A stretch of DNA of 64,000 nucleotides from NCBI RefSeq assembly GCF_000026145.1, contig NC_009445.1:2480001-2544000 (forward strand). Direction: 5' to 3'. Position numbers and translations under genes: made by a program. Source of the stretch: Bradyrhizobium sp. ORS 278 (GTDB lineage: Bacteria > Pseudomonadota > Alphaproteobacteria > Rhizobiales > Xanthobacteraceae). The notes beneath the pieces are model-generated. The model was given only the letters and a program-made list of their open reading frames with translations. It had not been told where the DNA came from and ran no database searches. How positions within the stretch are numbered: position 1 is the stretch's first letter; each line of letters starts with the position of its first letter. Below, in pieces: positions 2,676-40,160 of this stretch.

Positions 2676-3233
2676 TCAGGCGACGCCGGGCACGATCGCG
2701 ACGACGCGGCGCGTGTGCTGGTCGACAATGACCAGCTTGTCCTGCACCAGCACGTACTGATCGCCCCAATAGCCGTTCATGATCTGCGTGATCTCCGGCG
2801 GGATGTCCTGCAGCTGCACCTGTCCGGGAACTGCCGAGCCGATCATCATCTCGAACTGCGCCTGCTGCACGCGCGGCGCAGTCTGCCTGCGGATGACATC
2901 CTTGACCTGGTTGCGCGCCTGATCGCTCAGCGACAGCGGCTGCGAGCTTTGCTTGATGGCGCGCTCGCGGCCGCCGGTCGCGTCGGCCTGGCCCGCCGGA
3001 TCGTTCTTGCCGACCGCGCTTTCCGCCGCCTGCTGCGCGGGCATGGTGCGGCCGACCGTGCTGTCGGATGCGGAGGAGGGGTTGGCGCCGCTGTTCGGCG
3101 TGCCGGTCGGATTGCGGCTGACCAGCGGCCAGGCGATGAGGGCGACGAACAGCACGGCGATCGCGCCGCCGCCGGCCATCGCTATCACGCTGATCCGCCG
3201 GCGATTCGGATCGTTGCGATCGTTGGTGATCAT
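2676..3233 (-). CDS. Membrane-anchored DUF1236-type protein
   Basis: The 185-residue protein has an N-terminal cytoplasmic Arg/Asn-rich patch, one membrane segment (about residues 14-38, AMAGGGAIAVLFVALIAWPL), a low-complexity Ser/Gly/Ala/Pro linker, and a C-terminal domain of about 90 residues that ends in TRRVVAIVPGVA. The C-terminal sequence, with paired beta-hairpin phrases around QYVLVQDKLVIVD, matches the DUF1236 pattern common in Bradyrhizobium envelope proteins. Function is unknown; a periplasmic location for the domain is inferred. Its stop codon converges on the upstream small gene with a 5-nt gap. Confidence 0.65.
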   Translation of the reverse strand: MITNDRNDPNRRRISVIAMAGGGAIAVLFVALIAWPLVSRNPTGTPNSGANPSSASDSTVGRTMPAQQAAESAVGKNDPAGQADATGGRERAIKQSSQPLSLSDQARNQVKDVIRRQTAPRVQQAQFEMMIGSAVPGQVQLQDIPPEITQIMNGYWGDQYVLVQDKLVIVDQHTRRVVAIVPGVA

Positions 3234-3399
3234 GGAACCCTCCGCGAGATGCTGCGGAGCTAAGCATCGTCGCCGGCATCCGTTCCTCCTGGCGCGCCGC
3301 GTATGATGCTGCGCTCCGCCTCAGGTCAAATAATCAGCTGAACATGATATCGCGTTCCCGCGACCGGTCCGGTCCGAGGTGTGTCGGTTGATGCCGCCC

Positions 3400-3775
3400 T
3401 TCAGTATCGAGGGCGCAGGGAAGGCCGGGTGTTCACCACACCCGCGGCCCCCGTGCGGTAAAAAAAGCACGGGGCAGGAACCACAGGTGGGCCGAACATG
3501 CCGGCCTTCCCTGCGCGATGTTTTATCGGCTTATACGTGGTCTCCCTGGTGCGCCGGGCTTGTTGGCCACCATTGTCCGCGCCATGCGCTGGGCATCGCC
3601 GCGAACGTGATACCAGCATCGGGGTATCAGGACATCACGACTTCACCGGACGTCCCGCATCACTCGTCCGCGCAAAAGCGCATGATGCACGACGTCCACC
3701 GCGGCCTGCCTCACGTATCGTGACGACGCGTACGTCCCTCTTCACGAAGCAGGTTGGGCGCAAGCATCGTGCTGA
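3400..3775. repeat. Dispersed structured element, copy 1
   Basis: This gap segment is similar over most of its length to 30400-30800. Shared stretches are a GCGCAGGGAA stem strand, a poly-A-loop hairpin, the phrase ACCACAGGT, then GCTTATACG, CCCTGGTGCGCCGG, TTGTTGGCCACC and a distal small hairpin with GATACC/GGTATC arms. Open frames across it are not conserved between copies in a coding manner, while stems are. Such loci are probably often annotated as spurious hypothetical proteins in Bradyrhizobium genomes (memory-based). The rest of the 3234-3991 gap shows nothing recognisable. Confidence 0.75.
3413..3516. ncRNA. Candidate structured RNA, copy 1
   Basis: Perfect 16-bp arms (3413-3428 with 3501-3516, GCGCAGGGAAGGCCGG type) enclose a small GGGTG/CACCC hairpin and an 8-bp stem (3449-3456 with 3467-3474, CCCCGTGC/GCACGGGG) carrying a 10-nt A-rich loop. 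The single-stranded GGCAGG-ACCACAGGT phrase follows. Compared with the copy at 30412-30515, the outer stem has one and the inner stem two compensatory pair changes. That supports selection on base pairing. Strand and function are unknown. Confidence 0.6.
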
Positions 3776-3991
3776 TTTGCCCGACGACACAAGGGCTGGA
3801 TGGTGCGACAAGGTAACGCGACGGGCAGTCACACATGACGTCACACACGGATGGGCCACCGTATTCGTCGATCGAACAAATGTGGTCGACGGATGTGCAT
3901 GCCGCCGGACGACGGACGTGGGAACGCCATGCCGCAGCCATCAACCTGTTCGAACGTGGCCGCGCAATGGCGATGAGAGCAGGGGGCAGAC

Positions 3992-4267
3992 TTGGACTGG
4001 AGACTCTTCGTGACGGCGGCGTTGGCGGCCGCGATCGGCGCGGCAGCCGGCGTGTTCGTGGTGACGAGCACCGCAGGCGGCGGTATCGAGCATCAGGCCG
4101 ACGCCAAGATGCTGGAGATCGGCGTCGCCATCCTGCGCGAGCCGGCGCGGGCGGATGACGATCCGATGCGGTCATGGGCGGTGAAGGTGGTGGAGAAGAA
4201 GTCGGGCGTGAGTTTTACGGACCCGCAGCGCGCAGCGCTGTTGAAGCGCGCGGCGGGAGCAAGGTAG
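3992..4267 (+). CDS. Small membrane-anchored hypothetical protein
   Basis: The 91-residue protein starts at TTG behind an AGGGGG sequence (3981-3986). Residues 4-28 form one hydrophobic segment (LFVTAALAAAIGAAAGVFVV), followed by a polar C-terminal part with helices around MLEIGVAILREP and SWAVKVVEKKSG and a closing PQRAALLKRAAG. A signal-anchor or an uncleaved signal peptide is likely, placing the rest in the periplasm. No family is recognised, though short proteins with this layout recur in rhizobia. It stands alone between two repeat-rich gaps. Confidence 0.6.
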   Translation: MDWRLFVTAALAAAIGAAAGVFVVTSTAGGGIEHQADAKMLEIGVAILREPARADDDPMRSWAVKVVEKKSGVSFTDPQRAALLKRAAGAR

Positions 4268-7683: not shown

Positions 7684-7749
7684 AGGCTGTCCTCCCGGCA
7701 AGCGCCGGGACTCCGCCAACTGTGGCGCGTGCTGCCGCCGCATCCTCCG

Positions 7750-7877
7750 CTGTCGTCCCTGCGAACGCAGGGACCCATACCGCCGACGGCTGATTGTTGG
7801 AAAAGATTCGGAGTCGCCGTTCGCGCGCAACAATCACGGCCGGTGGTTATGGGTCCCTGCGTTCGCAGGGACGACAG
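7750..7877. repeat. Palindromic repeat family C, copy 1
   Basis: CTGTCGTCCCTGCGAACGCA at the left is matched by its reverse complement at the right end. Each arm is itself a small hairpin (CCCTGCGAACGCAGGG). It sits 57 nt upstream of the LysR start and fills most of the gap, together with family A. Relatives are at 30146-30303 and 54475-54578. Confidence 0.85.
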
Positions 7878-7934
7878 CTGGGGGTGGGGCTGGCAGCGGG
7901 GCAGTCTTACGCTGGATGGCCGGGGCGTTCGTCC

Positions 7935-21566: not shown

Positions 21567-22685
21567 ATGTCCGATCTCGATACCAGCGTGCTGTTTCGTC
21601 CGTTTCGCCTGAAATCGCTGGAGCTGAAGAACCGCATCGTCATGGCGCCGATGACGCGCAACGCCGCGCCGAACGGCGTTCCCGGCGAAGCCAACGCCGC
21701 CTATTACCGCCGCCGCGCCGAAGGCGGCGTGGGGCTGATCCTGACCGAGGGCACGGTGATCAACCGTCCGGCCTCGCGCAACGAGCCTAACATTCCCTTC
21801 TTCCACGGCGAGGCCGCGCTGGCCGGCTGGCAGAGCGTGGCGAGCGCCGTGCACGCCGCCGGCGGCCGCATCGCGCCGCAGATCTGGCACACCGGCTCCA
21901 CCAAGGGCATAAGCCGCTGGGAGCCGGACGCGCCGGTCGAGAGCCCGTCGGGCCTGGTCGCGCCGGGCAAGCCACGCGGCAACATCATGACCGAGACCGA
22001 CATCGCCGACACGGTTGCCGCCTTCGCGCAGGCTGCGGCCGATGCCAAGCGCACCGGCTTCGACACGGTCGAAATCCACGGCGCCCATGGCTATCTTGTC
22101 GATGAGTTCTTCTGGTCCGGCACCAACAAGCGCGAGGACCGCTATGGTGGCCCGACCATCAAGGAGCGCTCGCGGTTTGCCGGCGAGATCGTCTCCGCGA
22201 TCCGCAAGGCTGTTGGTCCCGACTTCCCGATCATCCTGCGCGTCAGCCAGTGGAAGCAGCAGGACTACGCGACGCGCCTGGCCGAGACGCCGGCGCTGAT
22301 GGGCGACTGGCTGCAGCCGCTGGTCGACGCCGGCGTCGACATCCTGCACTGCTCGCAGCGCCGCTTCTGGGAACCGGAATTCCCGAAGATCGACGGCGAG
22401 AAGGGGCTCAACTTCGCCGGCTGGGCCAAGAAGATCACGGGCGCCGCGACCATCAGTGTCGGCTCGGTCGGGCTGTCCGACGAGTTCTTCTCGGCGTTCG
22501 CCGGCAAGCCGTCGACCTCGGCCGATCTCGACGCGCTGCTCGAGCGGATGGCGAAGGACGAGTTCGACCTCATCGCCGTCGGCCGCGCGCTGATCAGCGA
22601 TGCCGACTGGGTCGCCAAGATCAAGGCCGGCGACAAGGCCGGGCTGAAGGGCTTCAACGCCGCGGACCTCGGCGCGCTGGTGTGA
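21567..22685 (+). CDS. NADH:flavin oxidoreductase, old yellow enzyme family
   Basis: The 372-residue FMN TIM-barrel protein starts LFRPFRLKSLELKNRIVMAP and has IHGAHGYLVDEFFWSGTNKR with the substrate-binding histidine, then RYGG, ILRVSQWK and a FMN-phosphate loop in VGRALISDADW. Old yellow enzymes reduce activated C=C bonds (enones, maleimides, quinone-like electrophiles). The divergent HxlR regulator suggests induction by such electrophiles, which could include oxidised phenolics from the surrounding pathways. SD AAGGGAGCC precedes the ATG. Confidence 0.9.
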   Translation: MSDLDTSVLFRPFRLKSLELKNRIVMAPMTRNAAPNGVPGEANAAYYRRRAEGGVGLILTEGTVINRPASRNEPNIPFFHGEAALAGWQSVASAVHAAGGRIAPQIWHTGSTKGISRWEPDAPVESPSGLVAPGKPRGNIMTETDIADTVAAFAQAAADAKRTGFDTVEIHGAHGYLVDEFFWSGTNKREDRYGGPTIKERSRFAGEIVSAIRKAVGPDFPIILRVSQWKQQDYATRLAETPALMGDWLQPLVDAGVDILHCSQRRFWEPEFPKIDGEKGLNFAGWAKKITGAATISVGSVGLSDEFFSAFAGKPSTSADLDALLERMAKDEFDLIAVGRALISDADWVAKIKAGDKAGLKGFNAADLGALV

Positions 22686-22783
22686 GTTGGGTCGCGGCTT
22701 CTTCACCAAGTCCGTTCGCGTCCTCCTGCTAGAGCGTGGGTCGCCTGCGTTGTTAGTTGGATGCGAATAAAAACCACGGAGTC

Positions 22784-22949
22784 GGTGCACCCTCTCCCCC
22801 TGTGGGAGAGGGTGCCGGAGATGCAAAGCATCGGAGGCGGGTGAGGGGTCTCTGTCCGCACGGGAGCTCGCGGAGAGAGACCCCTCACCCGGCTCGCATT
22901 CGCTGCGCTCATGCGATCCACCCTCTCCCACAAGGGGAGAGGGTGCACC
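22784..22949. repeat. Palindromic repeat family D
   Basis: GGTGCACCCTCTCCCC at the left pairs with GGGGAGAGGGTGCACC at the right. Further inner arms are GGTGAGGGGTCTCT/AGAGACCCCTCACC. Only one copy is in the window, though a partial similar phrase (ACCCTCTTTCCG..GGGAGAGGG) occurs near 54652. Apart from this element the 22686-23061 gap shows nothing. Confidence 0.8.
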
Positions 22950-23061
22950 GCCATTGCGGCCCGTTAGTCCTTCCCCGCCAAGACGTGGAGCGGATGTTGT
23001 TGTCTGGTGAGAGGCAACTATGTTCGCTGCGCCTTGCACAATGGGACTCTCACTCCCGCAC

Positions 23062-28426: not shown

Positions 28427-28590
28427 CGTAGGGTGGGCAAAGGCGCGCCAATGCTGCGCGATGTTTGCGCTGCCGTGTCGCGCGCCGTGCCCACCATTCG
28501 CCTGCCGCGTGCAGGAGGCGCGGTGGGCACGGCGCGGGAGGGAGCGCAGACGATCAGTTGCGGCGGTGGCGCGCCTTTGCCCACCCTACG
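28427..28590. repeat. Nested palindromic repeat family A, copy 3
   Basis: The same outer CGTAGGGTGGGCAAAGGCGC and reverse-complement right end as the other two copies, with the inner GCCGTGCCCACC/GGTGGGCACGGC arms. It ends 33 nt before the inferred left end of the insertion sequence. Confidence 0.85.
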
Positions 28591-28622: not shown

Positions 28623-30009
28623 GACTATGATTCTCTGAGCGGAGCGGTTTGCTGGAGGTCATGATGGCTAAGGACGAGCTTTTCGATGGATTGCCGGAGC
28701 AGTCGGGTCCCAAAGCGCGGGAGCTTCCGAAGGGTGCGCCTCGTCTGCGGGTTCCGGAGCGCAACCAGGTCGAGCTGCGCGCGGTCGATATCGACAGCCT
28801 GATCGGGCAGGATCATCCGGCGCGGATGATCTGGACCTATGTCGAGACGCTCGACCTGAGCGAGTTGGAAGACCGAGTGAAGGCGCGGGAGAACAGGCCT
28901 GGTCATCCGGCACCGTCGCCACGCCTTTTGCTGGCGCTCTGGCTCTATGCCACCAGCGACGGCGTCGGCAGTGCTCGGGCGCTGGATCGCCTGTGCGAGA
29001 GCCATGATGCCTATCGCTGGCTGTGTGGCGGGGTATCGCTGAACTATCACACGCTATCGGACTTCCGCGTCGGCTGTGCCGATGTGCTCGACCGCCTGAT
29101 GAGCGAACATCTGGCGGCGTTGAGCGAGGCCGGGCTGGTCGATCTCGATACGCTGGCACAGGACGGGGTGCGGATCCGCGCCAATGCGGGGGCCAGCTCG
29201 TTCCGGCGCGAAGCGAGGCTGCAGCAGAAGCTGGCGGAAGCAACGGAGGTGGTGGAAGAGCTCAAGCGGGAAGTCGATGCAGATCCAGAAGCCAGCAACC
29301 GGCGCATCCGCGCGGCGCGTGAGCGCGCCGCACGCGAGCATAAACAGAAGGTCGAAGCGGCGCAGGCGGCGCTGGAGGAGATCAAGCGCAAGCGCCAGAA
29401 GCTCGAGGAAAAAGGCGGTAACGGCAAGAAGCCGAAGGAGCCTCGGGCCTCCACCACCGATCCGCAGGCGCGGCGGATGAAGATGGCCGATGCCGGCTTC
29501 CGTCCCGCCTACAACGTGCAGGTCGTCAGCGCTGCAGCTGCGATGATCGTGGTCGCAATCGACATCGACAACAACGGATCAGACGGCGGCCTGATGCGAC
29601 CGATGCTGGAGCGGCTGCGCGACAAGCTGCAACGCCTGCCCAGGCGCTACCTCGTCGATGGCGGATACTGCCGTGGCGACGACATCGAATGGGCGCATGG
29701 CCAGAACATCGAGATCTACTGTCCGCCGCGCTCGCAAAAAAGCGGTGTTGATCCTTATCTGCCCCGAGATACCGATGGCCCTGGTGTGGCGGCCTGGCGA
29801 GCGCGCATGGCGAGCGAAGCCGGCAAGGCTCAGTATCAGCTCCGCTCGCTGTGCGAATGCATCCACGCCCGCTGGCGCAACTGGGACCTCCGGCAAGTGA
29901 CGGTACGCGGCATCGACAAGGTTCGCGCCGTCGTGAGCTGGTACGCGTTCACCAACAACCTTCTGCAAGGATTGCACCTCATCGCCTGTCAAAAAGCAGC
30001 ATCATAGTC
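28623..30009 (+). mobile_element. IS1182-family insertion sequence (ends tentative)
   Basis: GACTATGAT at 28623-28631 is repeated inverted (ATCATAGTC) at 30001-30009, tightly flanking one transposase gene, and the stop codon lies inside the right repeat. No target-site duplication was obvious. The true ends may extend a little further, so the 1.39-kb size is a minimum. Confidence 0.55.
28664..30007 (+). CDS. IS1182-family DDE transposase
   Basis: The 447-residue protein has the IS1182/IS5-like layout. The N-terminal part contains SPRLLLALWLYATSDGVGSARA and LCESHDAYRWLCGGVSLNYHTLSDFR, then comes a charged coiled coil at about residues 170-260. The catalytic core has TTDPQARRMKMADAGFRPAYN and VDGGYCRGDDIEWA. 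Candidate acidic residues are in LAQDGVRIRANAG, VDGG and the later E of CECIHA. It appears intact with no frameshift, so the element may be active. GGAGG precedes two in-frame ATGs; the second is chosen for spacing. Confidence 0.9.
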   Translation: MAKDELFDGLPEQSGPKARELPKGAPRLRVPERNQVELRAVDIDSLIGQDHPARMIWTYVETLDLSELEDRVKARENRPGHPAPSPRLLLALWLYATSDGVGSARALDRLCESHDAYRWLCGGVSLNYHTLSDFRVGCADVLDRLMSEHLAALSEAGLVDLDTLAQDGVRIRANAGASSFRREARLQQKLAEATEVVEELKREVDADPEASNRRIRAARERAAREHKQKVEAAQAALEEIKRKRQKLEEKGGNGKKPKEPRASTTDPQARRMKMADAGFRPAYNVQVVSAAAAMIVVAIDIDNNGSDGGLMRPMLERLRDKLQRLPRRYLVDGGYCRGDDIEWAHGQNIEIYCPPRSQKSGVDPYLPRDTDGPGVAAWRARMASEAGKAQYQLRSLCECIHARWRNWDLRQVTVRGIDKVRAVVSWYAFTNNLLQGLHLIACQKAAS

Positions 30010-30145
30010 GCCGGGAGCGGCATCCGAGGGATCCTCCGGGACAATCCGCCGCACAGAGCCGCCCACAACGGCTATCCCGCGGCGACAGCCCCCTCGTCGC
30101 AAACTCAGCCCTGAACTCAAATTGGCTCACAAGCTCTACGGCCCC

Positions 30146-30303
30146 GCTGTCGTCCCGGCCTCGAGCCGGGACTCATACCCCCAGGGAGCTATTTGAGGTA
30201 GGCTGGTCATTGGCTTTGTGCCCAACACGTCTGCCGCGGCTTGTGGGTCCCGGATCGGCGCCGTGCCGCGCTTTGCGCGTCGCGGCTTGTCCGGGACGAC
30301 GGC
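30146..30303. repeat. Palindromic repeat family C, copy 2
   Basis: GCTGTCGTCCCGGCCTCGAG begins the element, and TTGTCCGGGACGACGGC ends it; GTGGGTCCCGGATCGG lies within. The arms are less perfect than in copies 1 and 3, which suggests an older insertion. Confidence 0.7.
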
Positions 30304-30404
30304 TGAAAAGAGCGACTTCACATCTCAAACAGCGCGGAACATGACATCCCGATCTCGCGGCGCATCGCGCCCGAGCCGTGCATCGATCATGTCCCTCCGA
30401 ACAA

Positions 30405-30800
30405 TGAGAGGGCGCAGGGAATGCCGGGTGAGGGCCTCACCCATGGCCCGCCTGCGAGAAAAAATGCAGGCGGCAGGTACCACAGGTTCAGCCGAGCATC
30501 CGGCATTCCCTGCGCGGTGTCTTCACGCTTATACGCAGTCGCCCTGGTGCGCCGGCGTGTTGGCCACCTCCGCGCGAGGCGAGCCTCGTCGCGTTCGCGA
30601 CCATGCGCTTGCGCGCATGGCGCGGATGACACCAGCTTCGGGGTGTCGGGCCGCTGCGACTTCACGTCCGCAGGCGATCGTTCGTCCGCAACCTCGTCGC
30701 CGAGCCTGCTGCGATCTCCCGCGGCCACCGCATCCCCGCCTCGCGTGTCGTGACGATCGCGCGCAACGCCCCTCTCGTTGAGGCAGGATGGCCGCAAGAT
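30405..30800. repeat. Dispersed structured element, copy 2
   Basis: This is the partner of the element at 3400-3775, with the same order of blocks: outer stem, A-loop hairpin, ACCACAGGT, GCTTATACG, CCCTGGTGCGCCGG, GTGTTGGCCACC, a GACACC/GGTGTC hairpin and a tail with GTGACGA and GCCGCAAG. It occupies the middle of the 1-kb non-coding gap between the insertion sequence and the GGDEF gene. The remaining parts of that gap (30010-30145 and 30801-31063) show no clear gene. Confidence 0.75.
30412..30515. ncRNA. Candidate structured RNA, copy 2
   Basis: Outer arms 30412-30427 and 30500-30515 pair over 16 bp. A GGGTGA/TCACCC hairpin follows, then an 8-bp stem (30448-30455 with 30466-30473, CCGCCTGC/GCAGGCGG) with a 10-nt A-rich loop, the same length as in copy 1. 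Differences from copy 1 in the two main stems keep pairing. Confidence 0.6.
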
Positions 30801-31063
30801 AAGCACATCTTCCGATAAAGCGAAAGAAGAATCTTCTGGAAAGCGGAAGTTTCTGGACCGACAATCTGTTCAGCGGCTGGTCGCTGCGCCGGCGAACATG
30901 GTTGTCGGGAGCCGTTCCAATCCCTGCACGTTAAACCGGAGCGAGTACGTCCGGATGGACCGCGAGTTCCATGCGCGAGATCGGCTCGGTTAGGAGTTCC
31001 CTCATCCTGCTGTTAAATCCAGCGTTAAGCGGCACGGGCGATGTTGGCGCCAAGGAGTTGCCG

Positions 31064-39915: not shown

Positions 39916-40011
39916 GTGTGCCGCAGACGCCTGCCGCATCGGGCGCTCGGCGAAGCCAGGTATGATTGCGCCACTCCGTGCCGTAGATCACGCCGCCAAC
40001 CGCCTCCACAC

Positions 40012-40114
40012 CTGTCATCGTCCGCGCAGGCGGACGATCCAGTATTCGGAGGCGCCCGTGATCGATCGAGAGCCCGCGGCGTACTGGATCATCCGCCTGC
40101 GCGGATGATGACAG
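40012..40114. repeat. Palindromic repeat family E
   Basis: CTGTCATCGTCCGCGCAGGC at the left is answered by GCCTGCGCGGATGATGACAG at the right, with inner GATCCAGTA/TACTGGATC arms. It fills the gap between the xylose operon and the MarR-GNAT gene. Confidence 0.8.
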
Positions 40115-40160
40115 CGTTGGTGAAGGCGCGCCGCATGCCTCAAGTTGACAAGGAATGATG

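Follow-up and report, generated by a model that had tools for sequence, protein, structure and literature searches.

A dispersed element of Bradyrhizobium sp. ORS 278 as a candidate gene family for a large structured RNA with orientation-dependent spacing

Comparison with described RNAs and repeats

The bacterial RNAs OLE, GOLLD, ROOL, and HEARO are hundreds of nucleotides long, have covarying multi-domain folds, and have functions that are unknown or were found only recently. In animal chromosomes, CTCF sites are boundary elements that have an orientation-dependent arrangement. The element described here, which occurs twice in a window of 64,000 nucleotides from Bradyrhizobium sp. ORS 278 (NC_009445.1, positions 2,480,001 to 2,544,000), is similar to the four RNAs in its size and in its covarying multi-domain fold and has no Rfam 15 match, while the likeness to CTCF sites is an analogy only, as these are protein-bound DNA in a different domain of life. 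We know of no other bacterial RNA family whose genes are spaced according to their orientation. A comparator with a proposed role in the nucleoid is naRNA4/REP325 of E. coli, a repeated-palindrome ncRNA reported to help join DNA segments with HU (PMC6907758), which serves as a model for a repeat-encoded, nucleoid-organizing RNA, but which is described there as one RNA from REP325, whereas here there are 121 large, polar-spaced genes with individual promoter-like regions. The Br-REP1 and Br-REP2 repeats of Bradyrhizobium japonicum USDA 110 are likewise dispersed intergenic palindromic repeats of Bradyrhizobium and Rhodopseudomonas, with consensus sequences of about 20 and 40 nt (PMC5082802). 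Their consensus differs from our element, and the passage of that paper on these repeats makes no mention of an RNA of ~450 nt, of a strand or promoter, or of a rule for spacing. By reading, unscored, neither of the consensus palindromes given there was seen in window positions 3001-4000 or around the second copy (30001-31000); the passage may nevertheless be a sighting of the element or of its neighbor. A 104-candidate survey lists a Rhizobiales-1 motif without an Rfam number (PMC2864571).

Comparison with Rfam, which the first-pass annotation of this DNA had recommended, placed no Rfam 15 family in the window at gathering score, and in eight related loci the only match at that score was a tRNA elsewhere in one of them (L361), on which ground a group II intron remnant was rejected. 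With E values allowed up to 5, positions 3200-4000 of the window matched three microRNA models only, all far below their cut-offs, and a description of the element was not found in open-licence PMC papers. The best reading of the sequence is a new family of non-coding RNA genes, new with respect to Rfam 15, with the Rhizobiales-1 motif standing outside that comparison.

Extent, folded strand, and promoter-like regions

The first-pass annotation had placed two elements at 3413-3516 and 30412-30515, and both are present there, the arms of copy 1 (3413-3428 and 3501-3516) being 16 nt with 100% complementarity and those of copy 2 (30412-30430 and 30497-30515) being 19 nt with 95%. The differences it had listed between the two are likewise found in the sequence, namely a G-C to T-A change in the outer stem, two swaps in the inner stem, and the GATACC/GACACC hairpin. 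Its 104-nt unit proved too short: conservation in an alignment of 121 copies spans ~480 columns, which gives a real unit of ~430-480 nt, longer by ~330-370 bp, and all three thirds of the element are covered at >70% in 121 of 121 copies.

The strand also had to be reversed, with both the wobble counts and the fold stability pointing to the complementary strand as the folded product. Over 94 well-paired positions in the 121 copies, the strand first read carries 427 A·C and 102 G·U oppositions, a count that is conservative in using a consensus fold derived on that same strand; since A·C reads as U·G in the complement, the tolerated wobbles lie on the complementary strand. The alignment fold energy is -310 kcal/mol for the reverse complement and -250 kcal/mol for the strand first read, and when copies are folded singly, 120 of 121 are more stable on the opposite strand. 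The corresponding counts for the fold on the RNA strand are 1890 G·U and 259 A·C, and these favor that fold by construction. Mutation bias was rejected as the source of the asymmetry, in that unpaired columns show no G->A excess (0.046 vs 0.064 for C->T).

The earlier claim of a multicopy family under structural rather than coding selection was upheld by 32 compensatory double changes kept, where 4.2 were expected, and by reading frames that are mostly closed. The stems that had been named are 97.6% paired in 31 copies, and the statistical covariation test that had been suggested gave 44 double-change cells in these copies compared with 12.5 in shuffles, none of 500 shuffles reaching 44. From the 121 copies, 133 base pairs are predicted. 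The 32 kept changes, set against 7 broken ones, come from 20 ortholog copy pairs and 113 base pairs compared between ORS 278 and a second species (G065), with 500 shuffles giving 4.2 ± 1.8 and a maximum of 10; between the same orthologs, paired columns diverge by 5.6% and unpaired columns by 18.6%, and the single-step states on the RNA strand are 108 G·U and 17 A·C. In a cross-genus alignment of 33 sequences over a 138-position core, which was fitted to the model, 98.0% of cells are paired, with 121 double-change cells compared with 35.7 after shuffling and 0-15 in slid versions. The compensatory changes support a multi-domain fold, and the element has the long, multi-domain, covarying structure by which large structured ncRNAs are recognized. 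Protein-level conservation had been named beforehand as evidence that would count against the structural reading, and a protein-coding gene was rejected: over 450 nt, only 27 of 363 copy-frames are open on the strand first read and 15 of 363 on the other, nearly all being closed.

Both copies would be read on the window's minus strand, copy 1 from ~3757 down to 3324 and copy 2 from ~30790 down to 30316, the ends of both proposed RNA genes (3324..3757 and 30316..30790) being approximate and taken from the 121-copy alignment and the fold, with end motifs in addition for copy 1. The RNA would begin with a 5' domain made of a AUCCCGCC...GGGCGGGAU stem and an invariant CGUCACG block. In copy 1 this domain lies at 3697..3757, with an ACCUGC...GCAGG stem, the CGUCACG block, and an end at GGUGG, and in copy 2 at 30725..30790, with the stem AUCCUGCCUC...GAGGCGGGGAU and the same block and end, both assigned by reading against the cross-genus alignment A7. 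A middle multi-branch region would follow, and then a 14-17-bp core stem-loop, of which the complement had been seen at first; the core domain occupies 3413..3516 and 30412..30515 on the minus strand and is backed by arm complementarity, core-stem covariation, and a covariance-model match. Sequence reading together with the 121-copy alignment places the GATACC/GGTATC hairpin of copy 1 at 3607..3630 and the GACACC/GGTGTC hairpin of copy 2 at 30625..30649, both on the minus strand. The 3' part of the RNA would consist of hairpins, with the 3'-end hairpins of the two minus-strand copies, CTCGG...CCGGT/CGCGGG at 3357..3378 and CTCGGGCGC/GCGCCGCGAG at 30353..30375, taken from the 121-copy alignment, and it would end near GCUGUUUGA, where by reading no U-run terminator was recognized.

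A sigma-70-type promoter is proposed directly upstream of the RNA gene, clear in relatives and diverged in ORS 278. In relatives, a sequence agreeing with TTGACA-N16-18-TATATT at 10 or more of the 12 positions is located a short way upstream in 27 of 34 loci picked by hand, compared with 0.8% of 1360 controls, which were shuffles and random windows drawn from those loci. All 34 loci are from outside the ORS 278 genome (other genera, MAGs, and 11 of 20 loci of G209, a genome of another genus), the set leaving out L215, L217, L225, the remaining G209 loci, and the majority of those from Bradyrhizobium, and without the 11 G209 loci the match is present in 16 of 23. Measured from its end to the GGGGCG block, the match lies 22-24 nt away in 26 loci of the 27 and 26 nt away in L216. 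In ORS 278, the exact TTGACA/TATATT consensus is unenriched (7.28 matches vs 7.18 in shuffles, 105 copies), and a de novo two-box motif search of the upstream regions locked on to GAAAT plus the RNA start and not on to a promoter. Promoter classes were scored on the 116 copies with the 5' anchor, which five copies lack. In one class, of 79 copies, an A-tract and TTKC precede a T-rich GAA spacer, with a T-rich box located 17 nt farther along; a second class, of 21, has CTTG...CGGGCAAATCA and, within its -10 region, an A and a T that never vary; and 16 copies fall outside both classes. The promoter-like region of copy 1 (3763..3793, minus strand) is of the CTTG...CGGGCAAATCA class, with the -35 at 3788-3793 and the -10 GATGCT at 3763-3768, and that of copy 2 (30797..30825, minus strand) is of the A-tract/TTKC class, with TTTCGC at 30820-30825, a 17-nt spacer, and TTATCT at 30797-30802. 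We infer that the upstream blocks of this genome are diverged promoters. The upstream regions fall into several classes, including CTGCCCGTCGTGTTAGTTTGTCGCA...CGGGCAAATCA and GCTGATTTGGCCTGTCCAGTCC, and these could reflect different sigma factors or regulators.

The window contains other features in addition to the two copies. Four imperfect palindromes of ~130-170 bp, at 7731-7897, 22783-22950, 28427-28590, and 40001-40128, are of another hairpin type and each match their own reverse complement at ~78%. A 36-bp inverted match of 94% joins 30144-30179 and 54513-54478, near a stretch immediately left of copy 2, CCGGGACGACGG, that reads as REP-like. Also left of copy 2, a 452-aa frame at 28649-30007 on the plus strand resembles an insertion-sequence transposase by eye, and a tRNA-Arg (tcg) gene is located at 21675-21755 on the minus strand.

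Copy number, inheritance, and polar spacing

The covariance-model search that had been suggested finds the element in 142 of 146 genomes of the genus and yields 121 full-length copies in the ORS 278 genome (G000, one 7.46-Mb contig), 62 on one strand and 59 on the other. The model (R1) was built on 31 copies and scored 150 candidates, all of which matched, 29 of them being weak antisense echoes. As checks on completeness, 40 of 40 sense-strand places from a DNA search are among the 121, as are 99 of 100 listed places from a pattern search, the exception being 2146037; the pattern is matched by 113 of the 121 copies, and subtracting its 31 control hits from its 146 hits gives ~115. Paralogs within the genome have a median identity of 71%, with the nearest paralog at a median of 82%. 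The copies are intergenic, five overlapping a frame called by a simple gene caller, and the median distance to the nearest called gene is ~270-280 bp. In the 93 copies with a gene called on both sides (the 28 with no call on one side being left out), the flanking genes face the element in 26, are co-directional in 25 and 24, and are divergent in 18.

Within the bacterial family of the host, the 5'-domain model R3 matched 104 of 248 genomes and 24 of 47 genera, and model R2 matched 41 of 119 genomes and 17 of 47 genera. These runs, whose scope is the host's order, used stricter filters under which weak matches are lost. When genomes were drawn from the whole order, matches came from 11 of 297 in one draw and from 7 of 199 in another, all but one marginal hit in each being from the host's family, and the hits outside it, at E values of only 7.2e-4 (R2) and 5.3e-4 (R3), were taken as chance. 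Carriers among the matches listed are Bradyrhizobium, Afipia massiliensis, another Afipia, a Rhodopseudomonas MAG, several unplaced alphaproteobacterial MAGs, and one MAG labeled Reyranella, of which one contig carries a copy (L292); in this last case the family limit may be loose, or the MAG may be mixed. Of the exact hits to a 23-nt pattern in this listing, three that were inspected (L333, L336, and L350) lie in element-free sequence.

A mobile element had been offered at first as one of two identities, and for this genome the copies do not appear to be mainly recently mobile. In the comparison with G065, which used 25 loci from the 26 best-scoring matches listed and is thus a non-random sample, 20 of 25 sites are common to ORS 278, with at least one flank of at least 250 bp in the same orientation; both flanks are matched in 10 of the 20, and of the remaining loci four have no shared flank and one is inverted. 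At all 20 shared sites, the element is matched best by the syntenic copy when the query includes some flank. With the element alone as query, tried on 21 loci of which four were misoriented or unresolved, the syntenic copy comes top among the 121 for 16 of the other 17 loci and second for the last one. On this comparison, the copies of ORS 278 are judged to be mainly inherited in place, at old fixed sites. Farther out, own-site matches found by nucleotide search only fall to 4 of 20 in G081, 4 of 15 in G037, 0 of 5 in G109, and 2 of 20 in G110, or 11 of 66 copies in genomes other than G065. In G209, the 20 copies examined, out of 28, are near-uniform over sharply bounded stretches of ~585 columns with unrelated flanks, and block by block 89-97% of them carry the majority base, a pattern compatible with recent amplification or gene conversion; these data leave room for amplification or homogenization elsewhere than in ORS 278. 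By eye, no target duplication is seen at these 20 G209 copies, which have a short CAAACA/TGTTTG pair near their ends, and a search for inverted repeats returned the internal core stem alone in each window copy. With one copy as query, there was no match in 72,556 plasmid records or in 50,697 phage records, and an origin from either was rejected.

The 121 copies are spaced more evenly than at random, with a gap CV of 0.53 compared with 0.99 (0 of 10000), and the spacing depends on orientation (0 of 20000 strand permutations). Convergent RNAs (n=32) have a median gap of 21.9 kb and hold 14 of the 15 gaps <20 kb, divergent RNAs (n=32) have a median of 75.6 kb and a minimum of 37.6 kb, and tandem RNAs (n=57) have a median of 66.0 kb. 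The polar trend is present in three of four other genomes tested, with genome lengths rounded throughout and with copy lists from R2, which was partly trained on ORS 278 and may miss diverged copies. Convergent and divergent medians are 57 and 161 kb in G025 (79 copies, divergent minimum 56.9, p 0.0006), 36 and 135 kb in G053 (89 copies, divergent minimum 58.3, p 0.0002), and 50 and 417 kb in G209 (28 copies, p 0.0035), and no orientation difference is seen in G110 (20 copies counted, weaker hits left out, p 0.41). The genomes within the genus are not fully independent, since sites may be partly shared; G209 is from another genus. Regularity beyond this polarity is clear only in ORS 278, is weak in G053 (p 0.022), and falls short of significance in the rest. 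An artefact of the search candidates was rejected as the source of the spacing on the completeness figures given above, and local inverted duplication was rejected for the close convergent pairs, as adjacent copies are no more alike than others.

Local action and rival explanations

A family of RNA genes is the best account of the element because of its structure, strand, and promoters, and we consider it very likely that each copy encodes a large structured non-coding RNA, and infer that this genome produces the RNA. The best explanation overall, to which we assign a probability of about 0.8, is that of minus-strand structured RNA genes that each probably act locally; local action is proposed because old and divergent copies are kept at their sites and because the distance between neighbors is set by orientation. 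Each copy would act in cis, or on the surrounding DNA, with a wide exclusive zone on its promoter side and a narrow one on its 3' side. That every copy has a local, polar role in organizing the chromosome is a tentative proposal drawn from the layout. A more particular version, which we consider unlikely, is that each RNA gene, as a polar boundary element loosely comparable with a CTCF site, marks a border and owns tens of kb on its promoter side, such that promoter-facing neighbors would enclose domains of ~76 kb (never <37 kb) and 3'-to-3' pairs would be close borders, with the nascent structured RNA or a bound protein halting or loading, in one direction, a loop-forming or supercoil-partitioning machine.

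Two rivals to local action are live. The same RNA genes may supply one pooled RNA acting in trans, 6S-, sponge-, or scaffold-like, in which case the copies would be dosage and the spacing a by-product; this is possible, and agrees with the conserved multi-domain fold, the promoters, and the many genomes of other genera with only 1-7 R3 hits (stricter filters, at most the best 18 candidates per genome), but a dosage role does not predict orientation-dependent spacing, and the paralogs are old and divergent, yet most of those sampled are kept at their sites. The other, which we regard as doubtful, is a selfish SINE-like element or non-autonomous transposon that has its own promoter and has mostly stopped moving in this lineage, with the spacing due either to polar target immunity or to the removal of harmful insertions by selection. 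The uneven copy number (121 in G000, 89 in G053, 79 in G025, 28 in G209, and 20 in G110), the uniform and sharply bounded G209 copies with their unrelated flanks, and the small number of shared sites beyond G065 are all consistent with past mobility, whereas the 20 of 25 sites common to two species, with the syntenic copy the best match, the purifying selection on structure that persists with compensatory change, and the lack of any inverted repeat but the core stem, of a target duplication by eye, and of a plasmid or phage match argue against it.

Three further explanations received less weight. The element could work as folded single-stranded DNA, as a priming, packaging, or recombination site, which would suit a polar, chromosome-wide layout; single-stranded DNA, too, accommodates G·T more readily than A·C, so the strand asymmetry alone does not decide against this. 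It is improbable, however, given the promoter at a near-fixed distance upstream of the folded strand in relatives, the conserved promoter-like blocks in ORS 278, and the lack of overall strand bias. More improbable again is a leader, terminator, or REP-type element of the adjacent genes, to which the intergenic position of the copies and the REP-like palindromes that by reading adjoin some of them would correspond, but for which the orientation of flanking genes is unbiased (26/25/24/18 of 93). Finally, template switching at quasi-palindromes could keep the arms complementary with the product unselected, and the pair-preserving changes of the core stem are indeed nearly all double; this process, however, predicts no strand asymmetry in wobbles, where ~4:1 and 6:1 are seen, and leaves the long-range pairs, the slow paired columns, and the promoters unexplained, such that we give it hardly any credence.

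If the reading as RNA genes is confirmed, more than 100 separately kept genes of one RNA family, with no Rfam entry, would make up ~0.7% of the chromosome (121 x ~450 nt of 7.46 Mb) in a genus that includes nitrogen-fixing crop symbionts. The orientation-dependent spacing, if also confirmed, would offer bacterial nucleoid biology a testable link from a structured RNA to large-scale chromosome layout, and if it is a by-product, there would still be a new large RNA family of unusual copy number.

Two minor observations concern the core and its surroundings. In alignment A3, the CAGCCG/GGCC stretch that follows ACCACAGGT is in many cases the complement of the first inner hairpin's loop, for which CGGCTG and TGGCC are among the variants; by reading, this is a possible pseudoknot that is absent in L017 and L018. 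In G081 (L068-L087), part of the core is near-identical across 20 copies while the hairpin loops left of the core are variable, suggesting the possibility of gene conversion confined to the core.
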